From NCBI RefSeq assembly GCF_002845985.1, contig NZ_PDFK01000004.1, positions 124,001 to 188,000 of the forward strand: DNA of 64,000 nt, written 5' to 3'. This DNA is from Lysinibacillus fusiformis. GTDB lineage: Bacteria > Bacillota > Bacilli > Bacillales_A > Planococcaceae. Positions 86 through 45,907 of the stretch are shown here, one piece after another. Positions within the stretch are counted from its first letter, which is position 1; every line of letters begins with the position of its first letter. A program made the position numbers and the translations under genes. Under the pieces are notes generated by a model. The model was not told the DNA's origin, searched no databases, and saw nothing but the letters and a program-made list of their open reading frames with translations.

Positions 86-1474
86 CTAGGATGAGTTTTT
101 AAGCGTATTGGCAAATTCAATCATTGATCTACTCGACATCGGTCCTTTTATTAGGACAATTGTGTCTGCATCGAGCTTTGGTTTCAATAATTCTAAAACG
201 CCTGTTACCTCTTTAAACGTATGAACCTCTGCGCTGGTTCCATCTTTTTGAGCTTGATCGGCAATCTTTTCCGCCCTTTTGCCGATGGTAATTAATGTAT
301 CAATCTTTCTTTCTGCTACCATGGAGCCAATTTCGCGATGGTATTTTTCTTCAAAATTACCTAATCGTTTAATATCCCCTAGAACGAGAATGACTTTCTT
401 CTCTTTTCCTACCGTATCTAGCACTTTTAGAGCTGCCTCTACAGATGTCGGGTTATTTGTCCACGTATCATCAATAATCGTACTGTCACCAAGCCCTGTC
501 GTAAATTCTAAATGTCTTGCCATCTGTTTAAACGTTCGTAACCCAGCTATAGCCTGACGAATTGTCAGCCCCATTTCACGACAAGCTGCAATCGCGGCTA
601 ATGCATTATAGACTTGATGCTCACCATAGCCAGGGACAAATACATTGTACGTGATAGCATCTACTTCTAAAGTAAACTTCATGCCCGTATTGGCAAACTC
701 TACATTCGACGCTTTAAAATCTGCCGTCTCATGTAAACCAAACTTAATAATTTTCCCCTTAAACTTTTTCAGCGAAATTTTTTTGATGTTGGTATCATCG
801 GCATTAATAATTAACGTACCATCTTCCTTAATGCCTTCCACAATTTCTGCCTTGGCCTTTATATAGCCTTCTAGGTTGAGACAGCCATCTAAATGATGCA
901 CACCAATATTTGTAATAATACCAATAGTCGGTTGATAGATCATACACTGATGTTTAATATTCCCTGTGTTGCCTAAACCTAATTCAAAGATAGCGGCTTG
1001 TGTTTTTTCTTCAATCCCCGTTAAATAAGGCAATGATTGCCTTGGCTCGTTTTTACTGCTAACGGATGCCTGCACTTGCCAATGCTTACTAGCGATATGT
1101 TTTAGCATCTCTTTTGTCGTTGTTTTACCACAAGTTCCTGTTAAAGCCACAACAGGAATTTGAAAAAGACCACGATAATACTCGATAAATGTCCAGTAGG
1201 CCTGTGCAACACTTTTCACTTGTAAAACGGTTGTATTAGCTAAAGCGCTTTTCAATTCTGTAGACGGTTTATCGGAGATGATTAAAGACGGTCCCTTCCG
1301 ATCAACCTCTTGCCAGTTGATTTTATCGTTTCGACTAACAAACATGAGGGAATGACTTTTTGTTAGGTCATGCCGATTATAGTAAATGGCCTGCTGCACA
1401 GACCATTGTTCTGATCCATGAATGAGCTTTCCTTGTAGAACGGTTCTAAGTTTTTGCACACTAATGGGTTGCAA
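86..1474 (-). CDS. MurF-like Mur ligase (paralogue A), non-canonical
   Basis: ATP-dependent amino acid or peptide ligase of the Mur ligase superfamily. I chose the TTG at 1474 (462 aa): GGAGG sits 10 bases upstream, and this start aligns with the paralogue (QPISVQKL against KPLSVKNL). Residues 1-100 resemble the MurF N-domain. The P-loop is TGTCGKTTTKE; a central domain follows with the ITNIGVHHL motif and KAKAE, the usual carbamylated-lysine region. The C-terminal ligase domain starts around IDDTWTNNPTS, equivalent to the MurF DxxYNANP motif. It lies beside a second Mur ligase and two ATP-grasp enzymes and not in a dcw or ddl-murF context, so cell-wall MurF activity is unlikely. The true substrate is unknown. 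Confidence 0.75.
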   Translation of the reverse strand: MQPISVQKLRTVLQGKLIHGSEQWSVQQAIYYNRHDLTKSHSLMFVSRNDKINWQEVDRKGPSLIISDKPSTELKSALANTTVLQVKSVAQAYWTFIEYYRGLFQIPVVALTGTCGKTTTKEMLKHIASKHWQVQASVSSKNEPRQSLPYLTGIEEKTQAAIFELGLGNTGNIKHQCMIYQPTIGIITNIGVHHLDGCLNLEGYIKAKAEIVEGIKEDGTLIINADDTNIKKISLKKFKGKIIKFGLHETADFKASNVEFANTGMKFTLEVDAITYNVFVPGYGEHQVYNALAAIAACREMGLTIRQAIAGLRTFKQMARHLEFTTGLGDSTIIDDTWTNNPTSVEAALKVLDTVGKEKKVILVLGDIKRLGNFEEKYHREIGSMVAERKIDTLITIGKRAEKIADQAQKDGTSAEVHTFKEVTGVLELLKPKLDADTIVLIKGPMSSRSMIEFANTLKNSS

Positions 1475-1620
1475 GTGTACTGCGCCTCCTCTCTTTATCA
1501 ATCTTGTATATGACTTACTCCTTCTCTTGATTCAGCGTGTTATATTCTGATCAATTACTATACCTTATTAGAATGTTCTTCTATGTGGCACAGTCAATAT
1601 CCTATATAGAAAGAAGCTGA
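1475..1620. other. Spacer between the two Mur ligase genes
   Basis: This 146-base AT-rich spacer separates two same-strand Mur ligase genes. It holds the ribosome binding site of the downstream gene (GGAGG near 1485). I see no clear hairpin terminator, so the two genes may be cotranscribed. Confidence 0.4.
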
Positions 1621-3015
1621 CTAATCAGCAGGTGGGGTAGGTTTCAGCTTTAGCTCCGCTGCTAGTTTAGAAATCTGTTTGCTATACATATCTCCCTTTA
1701 TGAGCACAATCGTATTGTCATCGACAATCTTCTGCAATAACGGATAGACGAGTGTACTATTTTTAAATGTATAGACAGACTCGCTAAATCCTAACTTGAC
1801 TGCATGATCAGCCATAATCCTTGCATGCTCCCCTATGGTAATCAAGACATCCACGCCAATGCGTTTTATTAATTCCCCCGCTTGCTCGTGAATAATATAA
1901 CCCCATGAACCTAAGTCGGTAATCGTACCAATGACAGCAATCTTTTTCTTGCCATCTCCTAGCTCATTCAACACTTTTAAGGCTGCCTCCAAGGAAGTGG
2001 TTGTAATACTCCAGGTATCATCCAATAGCATGGAATGATTGATGCCCTCAAAAAGTTGTAATTGTTTTTTCAATTGACGGAATGATTGGAGTAGTTTGGC
2101 TGCGACTGGAATGGGCATTCCCATGTCATAGACGGCTGCGATGGCAGCAAGCGCATTATAGACCTGGTGTTCTCCAAATCCTGGCACAAGAATGTCATAG
2201 TTTTTTTTATTGTGCTGAAGAACGAATTTCATCCCTTTTTGATAGTAGTGGATATGACTTGCTCGAAAATCACAGGACTCATGCTTCCCTACTTTAAGCA
2301 AACGACCACGGAATCTAGAAATATCTAGCTTCTGCGTATTGCTATCTTCCGCATTAATAATTAATGTACCTTTGGGGTGAATGATATCTAGCATTTCTCC
2401 CTTTGCTTGTATATAGCCTTCTAATGTTTTGCAATAGTTTAAGTGGTGAGCTCCGATATTAGTAATAATCCCTATGGTCGGTTTAAAATATTTTCCCGCA
2501 TTCGTGACATCTCCTGGCGAGCCAACTGCTGTTTCAAAGACGGCTGCCTCTGTTTCTTCCTCAATGCCCAATAAATATTGCAATGAAGCGGTTCTAGAAT
2601 TACTGCTTAATGTCGTTGCTGTCACTTTCCGATCAGCAGAAAGAAGATGTTTAATCATCTCTTTTGTCGTTGTTTTACCTGAAGTACCTGTAATCGCTAC
2701 AATCGGAATATGAAACTGATTGCGATAAAAATGAACAAATTTCCAATAGGCCTCTTCTGCATTCGCTACCTGTATCATAATGACTTGGTTTGGAATGTCA
2801 TTTGGCCGATAAGCTCTATCGGTCACTAGCACTAGAGGAGAAAGCGGCTCAAGACTTTTCCAATTCACAATACGTTTACTTGTAAATAGTGCCGTATTGG
2901 ACTTTTTCACTTGTTTTAATCGATAAGCCCCATGCTGAATCAGTACATCCTCTGACCCTTGCACTAGATAGCCTGCCGTAATCATTGCTAAATTTTTCAC
3001 CGAAAGAGGCTTCAT
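1621..3015 (-). CDS. MurF-like Mur ligase (paralogue B), non-canonical
   Basis: Paralogue of the neighbouring ligase. The ATG at 3015 (464 aa) follows AAAGGAGGGAG at good spacing; an upstream in-frame extension contains that ribosome binding site and is not coding. The P-loop is TGTSGKTTTKE, the central motif ITNIGAHHL is kept, and AKGEM marks the lysine region. The nucleotide-contact motif reads LDDTWSITTTS, so the Asn-Pro seen in MurF and in paralogue A (TNNPTS) is lost. The paralogues align from end to end, which suggests a local duplication followed by divergence. Divergent from the ATP-grasp gene at 3165. Likely joins an amino acid or peptide to a carboxylate; substrate unknown. Confidence 0.72.
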   Translation of the reverse strand: MKPLSVKNLAMITAGYLVQGSEDVLIQHGAYRLKQVKKSNTALFTSKRIVNWKSLEPLSPLVLVTDRAYRPNDIPNQVIMIQVANAEEAYWKFVHFYRNQFHIPIVAITGTSGKTTTKEMIKHLLSADRKVTATTLSSNSRTASLQYLLGIEEETEAAVFETAVGSPGDVTNAGKYFKPTIGIITNIGAHHLNYCKTLEGYIQAKGEMLDIIHPKGTLIINAEDSNTQKLDISRFRGRLLKVGKHESCDFRASHIHYYQKGMKFVLQHNKKNYDILVPGFGEHQVYNALAAIAAVYDMGMPIPVAAKLLQSFRQLKKQLQLFEGINHSMLLDDTWSITTTSLEAALKVLNELGDGKKKIAVIGTITDLGSWGYIIHEQAGELIKRIGVDVLITIGEHARIMADHAVKLGFSESVYTFKNSTLVYPLLQKIVDDNTIVLIKGDMYSKQISKLAAELKLKPTPPAD

Positions 3016-3039
3016 ATCTTTTCTCCCTCCTTTCTTTTC

Positions 3040-3048
3040 TAGTATATG
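3040..3048 (-). promoter_or_regulatory. Possible mother-cell sporulation -10 element
   Basis: The minus strand reads CATATACTA, which fits the SigK -10 pattern CATANNNTA and most of the SigE -10. A start site about 7 bases on would leave a short leader that still holds the GGAGGG of the ligase gene at 3015. I could not find a convincing -35, so this is a motif match only. Confidence 0.3.
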
Positions 3049-3164
3049 TAACCTCTTAAAAGTTGCTTGGATGTAGACAAGATACATAACTAGAAGAAAA
3101 CTATTTCACTGCATATATATAAAGGTGATTAAGTATCTAAGTACCAATAGAAGGAGTGATATAC

Positions 3165-4367
3165 CTGAAAGCCATTGTATTTATCGGTACAAACAAATCC
3201 GGGTCTAGTCGTGAAGCAACAAGAGCAGCAGAAAAACTAGGCTACTTCACAGTACTTTTCACAAATAATGAAAAACAACTTCAGCAGCGACGTGCCTACC
3301 CCGACATCCACAAAATGATACTCATTGATACTTTGAATATAGAGAGAATGAAAGAGGAAATTGATAAACTAGGGAAAACCGGATTAGAGATTAAAAGTAT
3401 CGTTAGTTTTGTTGATCCATTTGTCCATGTTGCTTCTATGCTATGTGATGAATTTTGTCATAACTATGCATCCTCCACTGCTATTGAAATGATGGAGGAT
3501 AAAGAGAAAACAAGAAATTTTTTAAAAGACCAACCATACTCACCAAAGTTTTCGCTTCTGAAGCCCCAGGAACCTATTGCTAAAAATTTGACCTTCCCAT
3601 TAATCGTAAAATCACCAAAATCAACAGGTTCAAAAGATGTATTATTAGCAACAGATGCAGAGCAACTTAATCATCACCTCAAAGCATTACGCAGTAAAAA
3701 TCCCTACGAATCCATCATGATTGAAGAATATTTGGATGGTCCACAATATTTAGTAGAAGCGGTTGTGTACCAACAACAACCACATGTCATTGGCATTATT
3801 GAACAGGAAATTACGCAAGGAAAACGATTTATTATTACAGGCTACGGTGTTTTAGTGAAAGCTCCGCAAGACATCCAATCAGGAATCGAAGAGGTACTCC
3901 ATTCCATTGTGAAGGCCTTTGATATCGAAAATGGAGCACTCCATTTAGAGCTTCGATTAACGCAAAATGGATGGAAGCTTATCGAAATCAATCCACGGAT
4001 TTCTGGTGGTGCCATGAACAATATGCTACAGGCAGCACTAGGATTTAGTTTAGTGGAAGAAACATTGAAACTATTACTTGGTGAACAGCCTAATCTCGAG
4101 CCAAGACATAAAAAATTTGTTTATACAAAATATGTTATTGTGGAAAGTAAAGGCATTTTAGAGAAGGTGATTGGCAAGGCAAGAGCGACAAGATCAACAG
4201 GTGTCGTAGAAGTGTATGTCAAACCGAGAAAAGGGACACTGCTAATGCCACCTTTATCGATGGGACATCGTTATGCTTATGTAATTGCAGAAGGGTCAAC
4301 ATTGAGGGAAGCTAGAAATCATGCAACAAATGCAGCAAAAGAAATTAAATTTATTTTGAGAGTTTGA
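3165..4367 (+). CDS. ATP-grasp carboxylate-amine ligase
   Basis: ATP-grasp enzyme of the carbamoyl-phosphate-synthetase / L-amino-acid ligase type, 400 aa. It has a pre-ATP-grasp Rossmann-like start (KAIVFIGTNKSG), the ATP-binding core (FPLIVKSPKSTGSKDV, IMIEEYLDGPQYLVE) and the metal-site motif LIEINPRISGGAMN. Such enzymes form an acyl phosphate and couple it to an amine, often making dipeptides. The start is unusual: AAGGAG lies 8 bases before a CTG that gives the natural N-terminus (M)KAIVFIG. The only alternative nearby is a GTG at 3156 that overlaps the ribosome binding site. It lies between two Mur ligase units, which suggests a shared pathway. Confidence 0.75.
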   Translation: MKAIVFIGTNKSGSSREATRAAEKLGYFTVLFTNNEKQLQQRRAYPDIHKMILIDTLNIERMKEEIDKLGKTGLEIKSIVSFVDPFVHVASMLCDEFCHNYASSTAIEMMEDKEKTRNFLKDQPYSPKFSLLKPQEPIAKNLTFPLIVKSPKSTGSKDVLLATDAEQLNHHLKALRSKNPYESIMIEEYLDGPQYLVEAVVYQQQPHVIGIIEQEITQGKRFIITGYGVLVKAPQDIQSGIEEVLHSIVKAFDIENGALHLELRLTQNGWKLIEINPRISGGAMNNMLQAALGFSLVEETLKLLLGEQPNLEPRHKKFVYTKYVIVESKGILEKVIGKARATRSTGVVEVYVKPRKGTLLMPPLSMGHRYAYVIAEGSTLREARNHATNAAKEIKFILRV

Positions 4368-4376
4368 AAAAAATAT

Positions 4377-4422
4377 CCCGAATAATTGCCGCTTGCCAGT
4401 GGACAGTTACTCGGGCTTTTTT
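4377..4422 (+). terminator. Intrinsic terminator of the ATP-grasp gene
   Basis: A 12-bp stem with one mismatch (CCCGA...TCGGG at its base) is followed by CTTTTTT, 10 bases after the ATP-grasp stop codon. Confidence 0.75.
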
Positions 4423-4452
4423 ATCTTGATTTGACAGATATCATGAAAGAGA

Positions 4453-4471
4453 GACCTGCACGATGCAGGTC
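4453..4471. other. Stem-loop in the convergent intergenic region
   Basis: A perfect stem with arms GACCTGCA / TGCAGGTC and a 3-base loop lies between two converging genes. There is only a weak T-rich tract on either side. It may help terminate the minus-strand fusion gene ending at 4556. Confidence 0.4.
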
Positions 4472-4555
4472 TGTTCATTATTCAATATGAAGTTGGACGC
4501 ATTATTGTATCTGCACGGAAGCGAAGCGTCAGCCGCAATTACATCAGAGCATACT

Positions 4556-6730
4556 TCATTCTTCCTTAAACGTTTCGTCTAAAAATTTCACAGTTTCAAA
4601 CATATTCGTTTTACTAGCACCTTTTACAAGAATGGTATCATGAGGCTCTACCAATGTTTCTAGTAGGACATGCAATTCGTCTTTATTGATAAAATGATGT
4701 ACCTTGGATGGGTCCATGCCCTTCGCAATGGCGGCATTGCTCATTTCTTCCGTCCTAAAGCCATAGGTAATGAATTCATCAATGCCTACCTCGTAAATGT
4801 ACTCCCCAACCTTTTTATATTCTTCCTCCCTCAAGACGCCGAGCTCTCGCATTTGTCCAATAATCGCTACTTTCCGTTCCTTCGCGATATTCGTTAGTAC
4901 ATCAATCGCAGCTCGAACCCCTTGTGGATGAGAGTGAACCGTATCATCAATGACCGTAATATCATCACGCAAGTTATAGATCGTTAAACGTCTTGGTGGT
5001 TTTTTAAAGTTGAGCCCCGCCTGAATTTCAAAGGGCGTGAACCCTAAAAGATCTGCCACTGCCACTGCATTGAGCGCATTGTAAACATGATGTTCCCCTA
5101 AAATTGGAATATACATTTCGATTTCTTCCCCATGTAGCTTCATTTTAAAGGACATGCCAATATCCTTATACTGCAAATCATAGGCACGATAATCGGCTTC
5201 TTTTTTAATACCCACCGTCAAGATTTTCCCTTTAAATTGCTCTGTCTCTAAGTATCTGGAATTGTCATCATCTTGATTGACAATGAGTAAGCCCTGCTGA
5301 TCCATACCATGAATCAATTCGGATTTCGCCTTGGCAACGCCTCTTACATCCCCATCAAAGTTCCCCACATGCGCTAAGCCAATATTCGTTACAATACTAA
5401 TATTCGGCTGAATTATACTACAGTGGTTGGTAATAATACCTGGGTAGGCCATACCATACTCTAATACGACAGCCTGATGTGTATCATTGATTTCTTCCTT
5501 ATGCTTTTTCGTATGCTCAGTCGTATTCCAATAATCCTTCGACTCAAAAACATTCCACTTTTTCGATAAAATCGAGCCGACAAATGCCTTTGTTGTTGTT
5601 TTGCCTGCACTTCCCGTAATGGCAATAATCGGCAAGTTTTTCTTGTCAGCCTGTTGCTTACTTTTTTGTTGGACAATTTTCTTTTTTAGAGGTTTTTGAT
5701 TTTTCGCAAGATACATCGCATAGCGGATGGAATGAATGACCACATCTAGCTCCAAGTAAAAGGCAGGAGGACAGCCTGGTCGCCAATTGACCTCATACAT
5801 CCAAATTTTTTGCTGCTGATCTAGGCCAACATCAATCCCAATTTCATCAATCACTTCCCCAAACTTCACCATTTGAATTTCATCCAGGTGATGAGCTAGC
5901 GCTAAGGAGAAATGCTCCAGCATTCGCCGAATATTATAAGCCTCTTCCTTAAATTCCTGTTCTAAAAATGGATCTAAATAATTCGTATAGCCCCCATTAT
6001 TAATATTCGGTATGATGGAACCATTTGGTGCAATTCGTGGGTACACTGTCGTCACTACCCATTTGCCTTCTCCATTTTTCTGAACATGCAAACGGAAATC
6101 ATAAACCTGACCCGACTTTGTGACCGATTGAATATAGGGCTGCATAATAAACGTACCAGACGCAAGCTGCTCCTTTATCAATGCATCTAATTGAGGCTTT
6201 GAATAAACCGTATTGGTGCTATCCTTTCGAACCTCGAAATGCTTAGTTCCCGCCTTCGTAATAAAATAAATGCCCTTCCCCTTACGTCCATCAATCGGCT
6301 TGAAGACAACCCGTTTATAATAATTAATGAACTTGTGAAATAAATCGACATCCTTTACAATTTCCGATGGAATCAAATACTGTTCAAATTCCTTTGCTTC
6401 CTTCAATCGCTTCATGACATTCCATTTATTCCCTATCGAATGGGTCGTAAATGGAATCTCTTCTTTTAAACGATCGATAATATCTTTAGAAACAGATAAT
6501 TTCTCTGGGCTCCCCGCATTATAGATCACATCAGGAAAGGGCATCGTTTTTTCCTGCCACTCGCCATTCTCATAGATCTTTGCTTGAATGGAGCGTTTGG
6601 CAAAGTCAACACTTTTAGGGGTGAAGTAAAAAAACTGTGCCCCTTCTGCTTTCGCAACTGCTGCATAGGCATATGACTTGAGAACTGTAGTTGGATCAAG
6701 TCGATGATGCAGCATACCAATAATCGTCAT
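4556..6730 (-). CDS. YheC/YheD-type ATP-grasp fused to a Mur ligase
   Basis: A two-enzyme fusion of 724 aa. The ATG at 6730 follows GAAAGGAAG; an in-frame ATG 18 bases upstream lacks spacing. Residues 1 to about 370 match the YheC/YheD endospore-coat-associated ATP-grasp family (VVFKPIDGRKGKGIYF, FIMQPYI, DIGLD-like metal region, MYEVNWRPGCPP). After a short Lys/Gln-rich linker, residues of about 390-724 form a complete Mur ligase: P-loop TGSAGKTTTK, VLEYGMAYPG, IVTNIGLAHVGNF, KAKSE, VIDDTVHSHPQG. ATP-grasp followed by Mur ligase is also the order in cyanophycin synthetase, which adds two amino acids alternately. Non-ribosomal peptide or polymer synthesis is the inference; the product is unknown. 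Confidence 0.75.
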   Translation of the reverse strand: MTIIGMLHHRLDPTTVLKSYAYAAVAKAEGAQFFYFTPKSVDFAKRSIQAKIYENGEWQEKTMPFPDVIYNAGSPEKLSVSKDIIDRLKEEIPFTTHSIGNKWNVMKRLKEAKEFEQYLIPSEIVKDVDLFHKFINYYKRVVFKPIDGRKGKGIYFITKAGTKHFEVRKDSTNTVYSKPQLDALIKEQLASGTFIMQPYIQSVTKSGQVYDFRLHVQKNGEGKWVVTTVYPRIAPNGSIIPNINNGGYTNYLDPFLEQEFKEEAYNIRRMLEHFSLALAHHLDEIQMVKFGEVIDEIGIDVGLDQQQKIWMYEVNWRPGCPPAFYLELDVVIHSIRYAMYLAKNQKPLKKKIVQQKSKQQADKKNLPIIAITGSAGKTTTKAFVGSILSKKWNVFESKDYWNTTEHTKKHKEEINDTHQAVVLEYGMAYPGIITNHCSIIQPNISIVTNIGLAHVGNFDGDVRGVAKAKSELIHGMDQQGLLIVNQDDDNSRYLETEQFKGKILTVGIKKEADYRAYDLQYKDIGMSFKMKLHGEEIEMYIPILGEHHVYNALNAVAVADLLGFTPFEIQAGLNFKKPPRRLTIYNLRDDITVIDDTVHSHPQGVRAAIDVLTNIAKERKVAIIGQMRELGVLREEEYKKVGEYIYEVGIDEFITYGFRTEEMSNAAIAKGMDPSKVHHFINKDELHVLLETLVEPHDTILVKGASKTNMFETVKFLDETFKEE

Positions 6731-6827
6731 AGTTAAACTTCCTTTCATTAGATTCTCTCTCTATTACATTCACTTTGTATCCCTCACATATAGACAGATG
6801 CTCTAGCTTTAGTAGTTTAATATGGCG

Positions 6828-7259
6828 CTACCATTTAGGCTCAATGATAAATTTCCCCTTCAACATGTCTGGCTTTAAGAGCTGAATCGCCGATATCCCA
6901 CTAAGTTCAATCGATTTGTGCGTACTTGTTTTTTCTAACCTCACCACGTCAGCAATCGAATTAGTATCATTTCCTTCATAATCAAAAGCGCGCAACAACG
7001 ACACTGTGCCACGGCAACGCTCTTTATCAATCGCCTCGATACGGAAATACTCCGTTTCAAATTGTTTCACTGTATCCATTAACCTTAAATGAGCGCCACT
7101 ATGTGTAATTAAAAAAAATGGAATCGTATCACTACCGACTATTTTGACAAGTAGCTGACCGAAATATTTAGAATGAAAATTCATCATAATATCCTGAAGA
7201 TCCTTCAAATCACTTAAAGCTTCGCATAAAAAGTGATTTCTTTTCTTCTCACTGTTCAA
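6828..7259 (-). CDS. CotY/CotZ/ExsY-like spore coat protein, cysteine-poor
   Basis: A 143-aa protein that follows the CotY/CotZ pattern: an N-terminal LSDLKDLQD segment, then SDTIPFFLIT, a YFRIEAIDKERC region, GTVSLLRAFD, VVRLEKT and ISAIQLLKPDML. In B. subtilis CotZ the same blocks hold many cysteines that cross-link the coat crust; this protein has only two, so it probably does not build a disulfide lattice. The TTG start at 7259 has GAGGGGG seven bases upstream. It lies 97 bases before the ATP-grasp/Mur-ligase start on the same strand with no obvious terminator between, which ties that enzyme to sporulation. Confidence 0.7.
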   Translation of the reverse strand: MNSEKKRNHFLCEALSDLKDLQDIMMNFHSKYFGQLLVKIVGSDTIPFFLITHSGAHLRLMDTVKQFETEYFRIEAIDKERCRGTVSLLRAFDYEGNDTNSIADVVRLEKTSTHKSIELSGISAIQLLKPDMLKGKFIIEPKW

Positions 7260-7318
7260 ATTGTAGCCCCCTCTCTAGTTTGAATATGTCTGTTGGTCCA
7301 TGTAAGTTGCCCTCTCGT

Positions 7319-7327
7319 TATAATATG
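7319..7327 (-). promoter_or_regulatory. Possible mother-cell sporulation -10 element
   Basis: The minus strand reads CATATTATA, matching the SigK -10 pattern CATANNNTA and most of the SigE -10 pattern, about 60 bases before the CotY/CotZ-like start. An ATATT lies upstream but at shorter than ideal spacing for SigE. Confidence 0.35.
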
Positions 7328-8069: not shown

Positions 8070-8124
8070 CCTACTTTCCCCCTTTGAACTAATCCAACGC
8101 TATCGTACTTCTATACAGCATGTT

Positions 8125-8403
8125 ATCCTCTGCTTTTACTGTTCTATCCGTTGCTTTTGTTGTTCTATCCGTTGCTTTTGTTGTTCTATCCGTTGCTTTT
8201 GCATTTCTATCCACCGCTTTTGTTGTTCTATCCGTTGCTTTTGCGTTTCTATCCATCACTTTTGTTGTTCTATCCATTACTTTTGCATTTCTATCCACCG
8301 CTTTCACTGTTCTATCCACCTTTTTTGCAACTCTATCCTTCTTTTCCTGCTATCCAGTACTTTTACAACTCTATCCACCTACTCCTGCAAACTATCCATC
8401 ACC
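8125..8403. repeat. 21-bp imperfect tandem repeat array (about 13 units)
   Basis: About 13 consecutive units begin with TATCC, most exactly 21 bases long with the core TATCC-NNYR-CTTTTG and a TTC or CTC end; one unit is 17 bases. As 21 is a multiple of three, both strands stay open in several frames (minus: DRTTKAT-like heptads). There is no ribosome binding site or plausible protein, so I do not call a gene. The array runs into the 3' end of the SMR gene that stops at 8379. A related array lies at 45606-45907. Confidence 0.9.
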
Positions 8404-8729
8404 TTGTCACGTTTATCCCCTTGATTTAACAAAATCACGCCGCCAATGATGAGGGCTATGCCAAGTGCCGAGTAGAGATTAAACATGTCGTGCCAAATAA
8501 TCATACCTACGAGAACGGTTAAAGCTGTCCCAACACCTGACCAAATAGCGTAGGCTAGGCTTAATGGCAATGTTTTTAGGCATAAGGATAAGCTATAAAA
8601 TGAAATGCCATAGCCAAGTGCCACCGCTAAAGAGGGACCCAGCACGGTGAAGCCTTCAGAAAGCTTGAGCATAGTTGTCGCAAAAACCTCACTTATAATC
8701 GATAATGTTAAAAATAAATAGCCCTTCAT
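8379..8729 (-). CDS. ebrB: SMR-family multidrug exporter subunit, EbrB-like
   Basis: Small multidrug resistance protein of 116 aa with four membrane helices, second gene of an SMR pair. The ATG at 8729 has TAGGAGG nine bases upstream. Family marks are the membrane Glu in the first helix (SIISEVFATTMLKLSEGF), YAIWSGVGTALT, and the VILLNQG end. Sequence is closer to EbrB than to YkkC/D. It exports cationic compounds by proton antiport, probably as a heterodimer with its neighbour. The C-terminal tail (DKRDKVMDSLQE) is encoded by the tandem repeat array, so the array seems to have replaced or extended the original gene end. Confidence 0.75.
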   Translation of the reverse strand: MKGYLFLTLSIISEVFATTMLKLSEGFTVLGPSLAVALGYGISFYSLSLCLKTLPLSLAYAIWSGVGTALTVLVGMIIWHDMFNLYSALGIALIIGGVILLNQGDKRDKVMDSLQE

Positions 8730-8742
8730 GCTGTTCAGCCTC

Positions 8743-9066
8743 CTAATGTCCACCTGCAAGATTGAGTACTACGACACCCAAAATAATACATAGTATCCCT
8801 ATGACCTTCTTGCGATTAAATTGTTCCTTATAAAGGACAACCCCGACAATAGCCGTTAACGCTGTCCCTAAACCTGCCCATATGGCATAGGCTGTGCCGA
8901 TAGGGATAACCTGTAATGTCAAGGCTAAACAATAAAATGCCGCTGCGTAGCCAACCACCACACCAACAGATGGCCAAATGCGCGTGAAACCTTCTGTGCG
9001 CTTTAGCATGGAGCTTGCAAAAACCTCTGCTACAATGGCGATCAATAAAAAACTAAAAACCATCAT
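8743..9066 (-). CDS. ebrA: SMR-family multidrug exporter subunit, EbrA-like
   Basis: Small multidrug resistance protein of 107 aa with four membrane helices, first gene of the pair, 13 bases before the partner's start. It has the conserved membrane Glu (IAIVAEVFASSMLKRTEGF), YAIWAGLGTALTAIVG and a GVVVLNLAG end. A GAAAGGA lies upstream of two adjacent ATG codons (9066 and 9063). Paired SMR genes normally act as one heterodimeric antiporter in the cytoplasmic membrane. Substrate not predictable; EbrA/EbrB assignment is by resemblance. Confidence 0.75.
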   Translation of the reverse strand: MMVFSFLLIAIVAEVFASSMLKRTEGFTRIWPSVGVVVGYAAAFYCLALTLQVIPIGTAYAIWAGLGTALTAIVGVVLYKEQFNRKKVIGILCIILGVVVLNLAGGH

Positions 9067-45580: not shown

Positions 45581-45605
45581 TTATTTATAATGTGGGTGTT
45601 CGTGG

Positions 45606-45907
45606 CTATCCGCTGCTTTTGAAAGGCTATCCTTCGCTTTTGAGCTTCTATCCACGCTCTAGGTTCTATCCTCTTCTTTCGCAAAGCTATCCTTCGTTTT
45701 CCTCATTCTATCCGCTACTTTTGCTGTTTTATCCACCACTTCTGAGCTTCTATCCACGCTCTAGGTTCTATCCTCTTCTTTCGCAAAGCTATCCTTCGCT
45801 TTCCTCATTCTATCCGCTACTTTTGCTGTTTTATCCACCACTTCTGAGCTTCTATCCACGCTTCAAAATTCTATCCTCTTCTTTTAAGCTTCTATCCACA
45901 CTTTTGC
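45606..45907. repeat. Second 18-21-bp tandem repeat array with a 102-bp higher-order repeat
   Basis: Fifteen units begin CTATCC or TTATCC, most 21 bases long with some of 18-20, and share the CTATCC-NNNN-CTTTTG core with the array at 8125-8403. Five units (18+21+21+21+21 bases) form a block at 45648-45749 that is repeated at 45750-45851 with one base changed, so recent duplication is clear. The plus strand is open in one frame but has no start signal or sensible protein. Confidence 0.9.

Follow-up and report, generated by a model that had tools for sequence, protein, structure and literature searches.

Gene content of the cluster

We analysed a 64,000-nucleotide stretch of the Lysinibacillus fusiformis genome (assembly GCF_002845985.1, contig NZ_PDFK01000004.1, positions 124,001 to 188,000), hereafter the window, which carries a cluster of amide ligase genes at its start. 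Between positions 86 and 7259, five genes encode a small CotZ-like protein, two ATP-grasp modules and three additional modules of MurF type; one ATP-grasp and one MurF-type module are joined in a fusion protein. An earlier note on this DNA had counted three Mur ligase and two ATP-grasp modules within 7 kb; open reading frames (ORFs) and Pfam agree. The features are as follows.

86..1501, minus strand: Mur1, a MurF-type ligase with a degenerate N-terminal domain and no DTR motif (Pfam, alignment)
1502..1620, no strand: intergenic stretch separating Mur1 from Mur2; in many relatives it holds P145 and a second YheCD enzyme, both absent here
1621..3087, minus strand: ORF of Mur2, a second MurF-type ligase; likely true start 3015
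3040..3048, minus strand: sigma-K type -10 box CATATACTA upstream of Mur2
3156..4367, plus strand: LAL, an L-amino-acid-ligase-type ATP-grasp enzyme with LAL_C2, nearest solved relative 3vot
4556..6748, minus strand: fusion of a YheC-type ATP-grasp enzyme (about residues 1-350) and a MurF-type ligase (about 371-730)
6828..7259, minus strand: small CotZ-like protein (2 cysteines), whose gene heads the fusion operon
6831..6848, minus strand: codons for the conserved C-terminal tail IIEPKW of the CotZ-like protein
7319..7327, minus strand: sigma-K type -10 box CATATTATA upstream of the CotZ-like gene

The fusion has 730 residues, of which 98-347 match the YheC/D ATP-grasp family PF14398 at 213 bits (Pfam cut-off 26.8), bearing out the YheC/YheD type that the earlier note had read in this half. 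It is the sole PF14398 match of the genome. Its closest named relatives, in L. capsici and L. boronitolerans, are 94% identical, and a 14-sequence alignment averages 69% identity per column. No solved structure was found for the YheC half, the fusion profile matching only Mur-half chains at E ≤1e-5. The plus-strand LAL gene product matches ATP-grasp_4 at 59.8 bits and LAL_C2 at 67 bits (Pfam cut-off 29.4), and its best solved relative is the L-amino acid ligase BL00235 (3vot, E 2.3e-14). It shares with BL00235 the ATP-grasp and LAL_C2 domains but is only distantly similar in sequence, and is a putative L-amino acid ligase.

Mur_ligase_M is matched at 118-135 bits (Pfam cut-off 24) by three proteins of the locus, out of 10 matches in the genome. 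For all three modules murF is the best-scoring model, yet their scores on TIGR01143 (258, 247 and 258 bits) fall below the cut-off of 288.6; Mur1 scores 258 bits against 419 for the genome's own MurF. MurF is thus their nearest relative, also among solved structures (4cvk, 1gg4), but the modules differ from it in having lost the uridine diphosphate (UDP)-binding domain or its motif and in an altered substrate loop, and an intact MurF is encoded elsewhere in the genome. The fusion has no N-terminal UDP-MurNAc domain. In the alignment, Mur1 and Mur2 lack the D-[ST]-R motif, which we take to be the signature of that domain and which is present in the genome's MurF, and Mur2 carries DDTWSITTTS where DDAYNAAPTS is expected. 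With these UDP-substrate features lost, a muropeptide linked to a nucleotide is an improbable acceptor. The P-loop, the middle-domain His and Lys and the DD pair are all kept in the alignment; these residues have roles in acyl phosphate and amide formation, and the Mur modules should therefore form acyl phosphates and amides.

The ORF of Mur2 begins at 3087. A sigma-K type box lies between this position and an ATG at 3015, and a ribosome-binding site precedes the latter, so translation probably starts at 3015.

The earlier note had placed the modules away from wall-synthesis genes. This holds for the genome's own MurF, MurE, MurD and MurC, which are encoded on other contigs and each exceed their NCBIfam cut-off. 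A wall-hydrolase-type gene adjoins Mur1; it faces Mur1, has its end at window base 43 and contains three NlpC/P60 stretches (L039:6532-8043). Upstream of the cluster, at 8379-9066, Pfam identifies two paired transporter genes of the small multidrug-resistance type. Their relatives lie close to the cluster in six of the seven other Lysinibacillus-type loci mapped, with both genes present in L040-L043 and L045 and not in L046 or L044. At window positions 8124-8379 and 45604-45903, two tandem arrays built of 21-base units share the core TTCTATCCRYYRCTTTTG, a dispersed repeat with 14 matches at up to 2 mismatches against 0.03 expected.

Conservation and link to sporulation

The same gene set was sought in other spore formers, as the earlier note had proposed. 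A scan of genome contigs with the fusion alignment returned 115 relatives, the best 80 of which were kept and represent 77 distinct loci, all containing the fusion by selection. Gene maps were drawn with a longest-ORF caller, which overlooked the CotZ-like gene of L080, L084 and L101. In these three loci the gene was recovered by tblastn only, and the operon heads are therefore probably misassigned.

The fusion is a single frame of more than 600 residues in 73 of the 77 loci, and an LAL gene lies on the strand opposite to it in 74. Stand-alone Mur ligases of at least 380 residues are found in 71 loci (Mur2-type in 65, Mur1-type in 57). The CotZ-like gene, whose constant presence the earlier note had proposed to test, is common without being invariable (65 of 77; 62 as ORFs and 3 by tblastn). 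A second YheCD enzyme of at least 240 residues occurs in 43 loci and the P145 gene in 31; 38 loci have another LAL, encoded on the strand of the fusion. The common gene order is LAL, CotZ-like, fusion, (LAL opposite), Mur2, P145, YheCD, Mur1. The window copy is without the second LAL, P145 and second YheCD, as are 17, 15 and 15, respectively, of the 17 Lysinibacillus loci. Thirteen named genera are represented (Lysinibacillus, Psychrobacillus, Sporosarcina, Neobacillus, Lederbergia, Domibacillus, Metasolibacillus, Solibacillus, Heyndrickxia, Peribacillus, Cytobacillus, Jeotgalibacillus and Calidifontibacillus), along with unassigned Bacillus strains and metagenome-assembled genomes (MAGs). A Clostridia MAG carries all the pieces as separate genes (YheC 361, Mur 368, Mur 368, LAL 406). 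In Sporosarcina thermotolerans (L126) the fusion, Mur2 and the second YheCD are split into several frames, through either sequencing errors or decay.

YheC and Mur modules are also joined in the opposite order, in Mur-first fusions of about 800 residues (L058, L145, L146 and L147, all by Pfam), and in G342, from another family, the two parts are adjacent separate genes. Their fusion in both orders and their occurrence as neighbours indicate that the two modules act together. A Mur tree was built from 53 of 56 prepared rows, three being omitted as their P-loop was not matched by the search pattern. Fusion, short and opposite-order Murs separate from Mur1 and Mur2; the four opposite-order fusions form one group (100/96), adjoined by two short Murs of L144 (100/99) and distant from the window-type fusion. 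MurF, MurD and MurC sit on long branches and the deep root is unsure. Since window-type and opposite-order Murs fall in separate groups, the two fusion orders look to have arisen independently.

Small proteins hold a regular place in these layouts. The fusion comes immediately after the CotZ-like gene in 51 of the 56 plus-strand copies of the latter; in 31 of 32 cases the gene right behind P145 is that of the second YheCD enzyme, and YheCD is followed by Mur1 in 25 of 63. The recurring layout of small protein, YheCD enzyme and Mur ligase suggests that each small protein is a partner of the ligases downstream of it. P145 is a small cysteine-containing protein that matched no Pfam family; it is predicted with low confidence to be all-beta (10 sequences, mean predicted local distance difference test (pLDDT) score 63), and its model had no PDB match at E 0.001 or better. 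Among 11 unfused family loci fetched, nine have CotZ-like, YheC and LAL genes adjacent without a Mur fusion, and the other two have YheC followed by a Mur1-like gene. A 1750-residue frame directly before a YheC gene (L203:2952-8204) has LAL_C2, at its extreme end, as its sole Pfam match. In three other genomes (L153, L154 and L155), mixed clusters that lack the fusion combine Mur ligases of full length with YheCD enzymes of roughly 430-490 residues, which points to a wider YheCD-Mur world beyond it.

We next compared the distribution of the cluster with that of SpoIVA (PF09547), used as a sporulation marker and scored on the same genomes. The complete fusion was found in 78 of 250 family genomes, all of them SpoIVA-positive (78 of 186, against 0 of 64 SpoIVA-negative genomes). 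In a class sample of 299 genomes, a match of at least 240 bits to either half was present in 56 of 210 genomes with SpoIVA and in 0 of 89 without. Fisher tests gave 7e-13 for the family and 2e-10 for the class sample, values that overstate the association because the genomes are related and the SpoIVA-free family genomes fall in six genera. The expectation of the earlier note that the set is found only in spore formers thus agrees with both samples, and clusters common in non-spore-formers, which it had named as contrary evidence, did not appear. The fusion was absent from 108 of the 186 SpoIVA-positive family genomes, and the cluster is therefore not a core sporulation system. Among the class-sample matches listed are YheCD matches of 170-196 bits in five genomes without SpoIVA. 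These orphan genes (L158-L162, 332-381 residues) show that YheCD alone is not restricted to spore formers; they stand alone, with no Mur, LAL or CotZ-like gene in the 19-kb stretches around them.

Promoters of the cluster

The earlier note had seen SigE/SigK-like -10 motifs at two genes. For sigma-K we took CATANNNTA as the -10 consensus letters and searched this pattern from -150 to +60 of each gene, with all unlabelled ORFs of at least 150 residues in the same loci as control (n = 543, which may include false ORFs). Exact boxes precede the CotZ-like gene and Mur2 in the window. Counting both strands, the pattern occurs 40 times in the whole window; one box by itself is therefore weak evidence, and weight was placed on the comparison across loci.

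Boxes were found at 21 of 62 CotZ-like genes, 23 of 40 plus-strand LAL genes, 37 of 68 Mur2 and 27 of 57 Mur1 genes, 24 of 76 opposite LAL genes and 15 of 67 second YheCD genes. They were rare at fusions (8 of 73), P145 (0 of 32) and the unlabelled ORFs (31 of 543). The box follows the head of the fusion operon, being present at 45 of 73 heads and only 2 of 85 internal genes, and which gene is the boxed head varies by genus. In Lysinibacillus it is the CotZ-like gene (15 of 17); in Psychrobacillus (7 of 9) and Neobacillus (3 of 4) it is LAL, and the CotZ-like gene behind has none. The mean head fraction over 23 genus labels was 0.59, each unassigned Bacillus strain counting as one label. With the -35 region unselected, A-C at -19 occurred in 20% of the cluster sites (85, non-redundant) as against 3% of the control sites (30), a modest signal; PMC517825 gives the optimal sigma-K spacing between -10 and -35 as 15 ± 1. 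The placement of sigma-K type boxes at operon heads makes late mother-cell expression of the cluster likely.

The sigma-E part of the earlier claim fared less well. No good two-part sigma-E site was found in the window, and across the loci such sites were no commoner upstream of cluster genes than upstream of controls. Single CATACNNT boxes were enriched, for example at 11 of 40 plus-strand LAL genes versus 24 of 543 controls. The sigma-K pattern is also matched by 34 of the 57 CATACNNT boxes and leaves the other 23 unexplained, so there may be some sigma-E input into the cluster.

The CotZ-like protein and the product of the cluster

The earlier note was right to place a CotY/CotZ-like protein at the head of the fusion strand, with the qualification that it belongs to a divergent branch. 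The window protein matches PF10612 (CotZ) at only 16.3 bits (E 0.011), under the cut-off of 24, and the genome has one true CotZ elsewhere (163 bits). Its relatives support the assignment: of 16 members aligned, 14 have a PF10612 match with E no higher than 1 (best 1.1e-12), and in a PF10612 search of 61 genomes five low matches (27-43 bits) each adjoin that genome's YheCD or fusion gene (G002, G004, G005, G017 and G024). By these matches the protein is assigned to the same family as the CotZ/CotY crust proteins, from which the cluster proteins differ in being cysteine-poor and in having an E-x-K-W tail. They contain a median of 3 cysteines (range 0-14; 2 in the window protein), against 15-19 in true CotZ, taken as the 30 best matches with loci out of 53 rows. 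An E-x-K or E-x-K-x C-terminus is present in 56 of 62 CotZ-like proteins and in none of these 30 true CotZ. It occurs in 53 of 57 copies within 1 kb of the fusion and in 3 of 5 further off. In a 50-row alignment the last six columns have a mean conservation of 0.81 versus 0.52 for the core, with E140 in 47 and K142 in 48 rows. An AlphaFold model is confident in the core, and residues 138-143 have pLDDT <50 and are predicted to be disordered. A flexible tail that is better conserved than the fold looks like a docking or ligation motif.

Our best explanation, held tentatively, is a late-sporulation mother-cell ligase pathway that builds a peptide on a coat protein. Domains, gene order, conservation, promoter boxes and the retained P-loop and middle-domain residues are observed, as is occurrence only in the SpoIVA-positive genomes of the two samples; we infer the reaction order, the amino acids, the acceptor and the place of the product. 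Sigma-K RNA polymerase would transcribe the genes for the amide ligases, of ATP-grasp and Mur type, along with that for the CotZ-derived small protein. LAL would make or supply either a dipeptide or an activated amino acid. Working as a pair, the two halves of the fusion (YheC-type and MurF-type) would add further amino acids at one ATP each, and Mur1 and Mur2 would then extend the chain at one ATP per amino acid. The conserved, free C-terminus of the CotZ-like protein would serve as acceptor, joined in relatives by the P145 protein, and the product would be a coat or crust protein bearing a short non-ribosomal peptide. A carrier-protein assembly line, with the cysteine-poor CotZ paralogue and its E-P-K-W tail as platform for a non-ribosomal peptide and a second assembly unit acting likewise on P145 in relatives, is possible though doubtful. 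According to PMC7911427, YheD is a spore-shell protein without determined function that surrounds the Bacillus subtilis forespore and self-associates; a YheC/D-family protein can thus sit on the spore. B. subtilis YheC and YheD belong to the same ATP-grasp family (PF14398), but here the family is fused to a Mur ligase, has LAL and CotZ-like neighbours and is associated with sigma-K rather than two-part sigma-E type promoters.

Several observations weigh against this proposal. The CotZ-like gene is absent from 12 of the 77 loci, some of them ended by contig ends, and LAL and YheC genes are neighbours without a CotZ-like gene in two other families; the CotZ-like protein can therefore not be a universal acceptor unless it is supplied from elsewhere. 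E-x-K is absent from 4 of 14 Sporosarcina CotZ-like copies, and the tails of nine unfused family loci comprise four E-x-K, four G-x-K-W and one with neither, so the tail Lys may matter more than the Glu. The conserved tail may also be a docking or coat-targeting motif and no ligation site. The two sigma-K type promoters of the window have a weak -35 match, only 4 of 14 operon heads in Sporosarcina and 1 of 4 in Domibacillus are boxed, and the genome counts are not independent, as the genomes are related.

The earlier note had envisaged a ribosome-independent peptide or polymer placed in the spore envelope. Such a product may exist; a coat protein that has been modified suits the anatomy no less well than an envelope polymer. 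A free product incorporated into the coat or crust, either a poly-amino acid or a branched oligopeptide, with the CotZ-like protein only an anchor, is nonetheless a serious contender, if also short of probable. Its logic would be that of cyanophycin, with ATP-grasp for the backbone and a Mur ligase for the side chain. Two ligase sites per polypeptide, as PMC9427784 gives for cyanophycin synthetase, both orders of fusion and the non-universal CotZ-like gene are all consistent with it. Cyanophycin synthetase CphA likewise combines ATP-grasp-type and Mur-type ligases in one polypeptide, but the fusion lies far below the TIGR02068 cut-off (59 bits against 850) and its ATP-grasp half belongs to a different family, PF14398; three more ligases would also be surplus for a simple two-residue repeat. 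The protein-bound peptide is slightly preferred, since the layout of small protein, YheCD and Mur suggests a partnership.

A small soluble spore peptide, acting as protectant, germination modulator or pigment precursor, is unlikely. LAL enzymes make free dipeptides, which fits the 3vot relative, and the transporter pair near the cluster would make export possible, but the coat-type gene in the operon and sigma-K timing indicate the mother cell, which lyses. Still less probable is that the Mur modules are spare wall enzymes altering cortex peptidoglycan precursors. Their best scores on murF and the NlpC/P60-type gene at the Mur1 end suit this role; against it, the UDP-binding domain is missing from the fusion and the DTR motif of the genome's MurF from Mur1 and Mur2, and all three fall short of the murF cut-off that true MurF passes. 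Chance grouping of paralogues without a common role, which the opposite strand of LAL might suggest, is contradicted by an order kept in 77 loci, fusions in two orders and a common promoter type, and can be dismissed.

In the open-access PubMed Central (PMC) literature we recognised no paper treating this cluster and found no Lysinibacillus spore expression or proteome data. The parts belong to known families; as far as could be told, their assembly, the promoters, the two-order fusions and the tailed CotZ have not been recognised in that literature. A spore-wall role is said to have been predicted already for YheC/D enzymes, in the Pfam note on PF14398 and by Iyer et al. in 2009. The locus ties this family to Mur-type ligases, L-amino acid ligases, a modified CotZ and sigma-K type promoters, a linkage found in many spore formers that hints at a further chemical step in spore-surface assembly. 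If the proposal is true, spore coats would carry non-ribosomal peptides made in the mother cell, and this would represent a new kind of post-translational peptide synthesis and provide a function for YheC/D-type enzymes.

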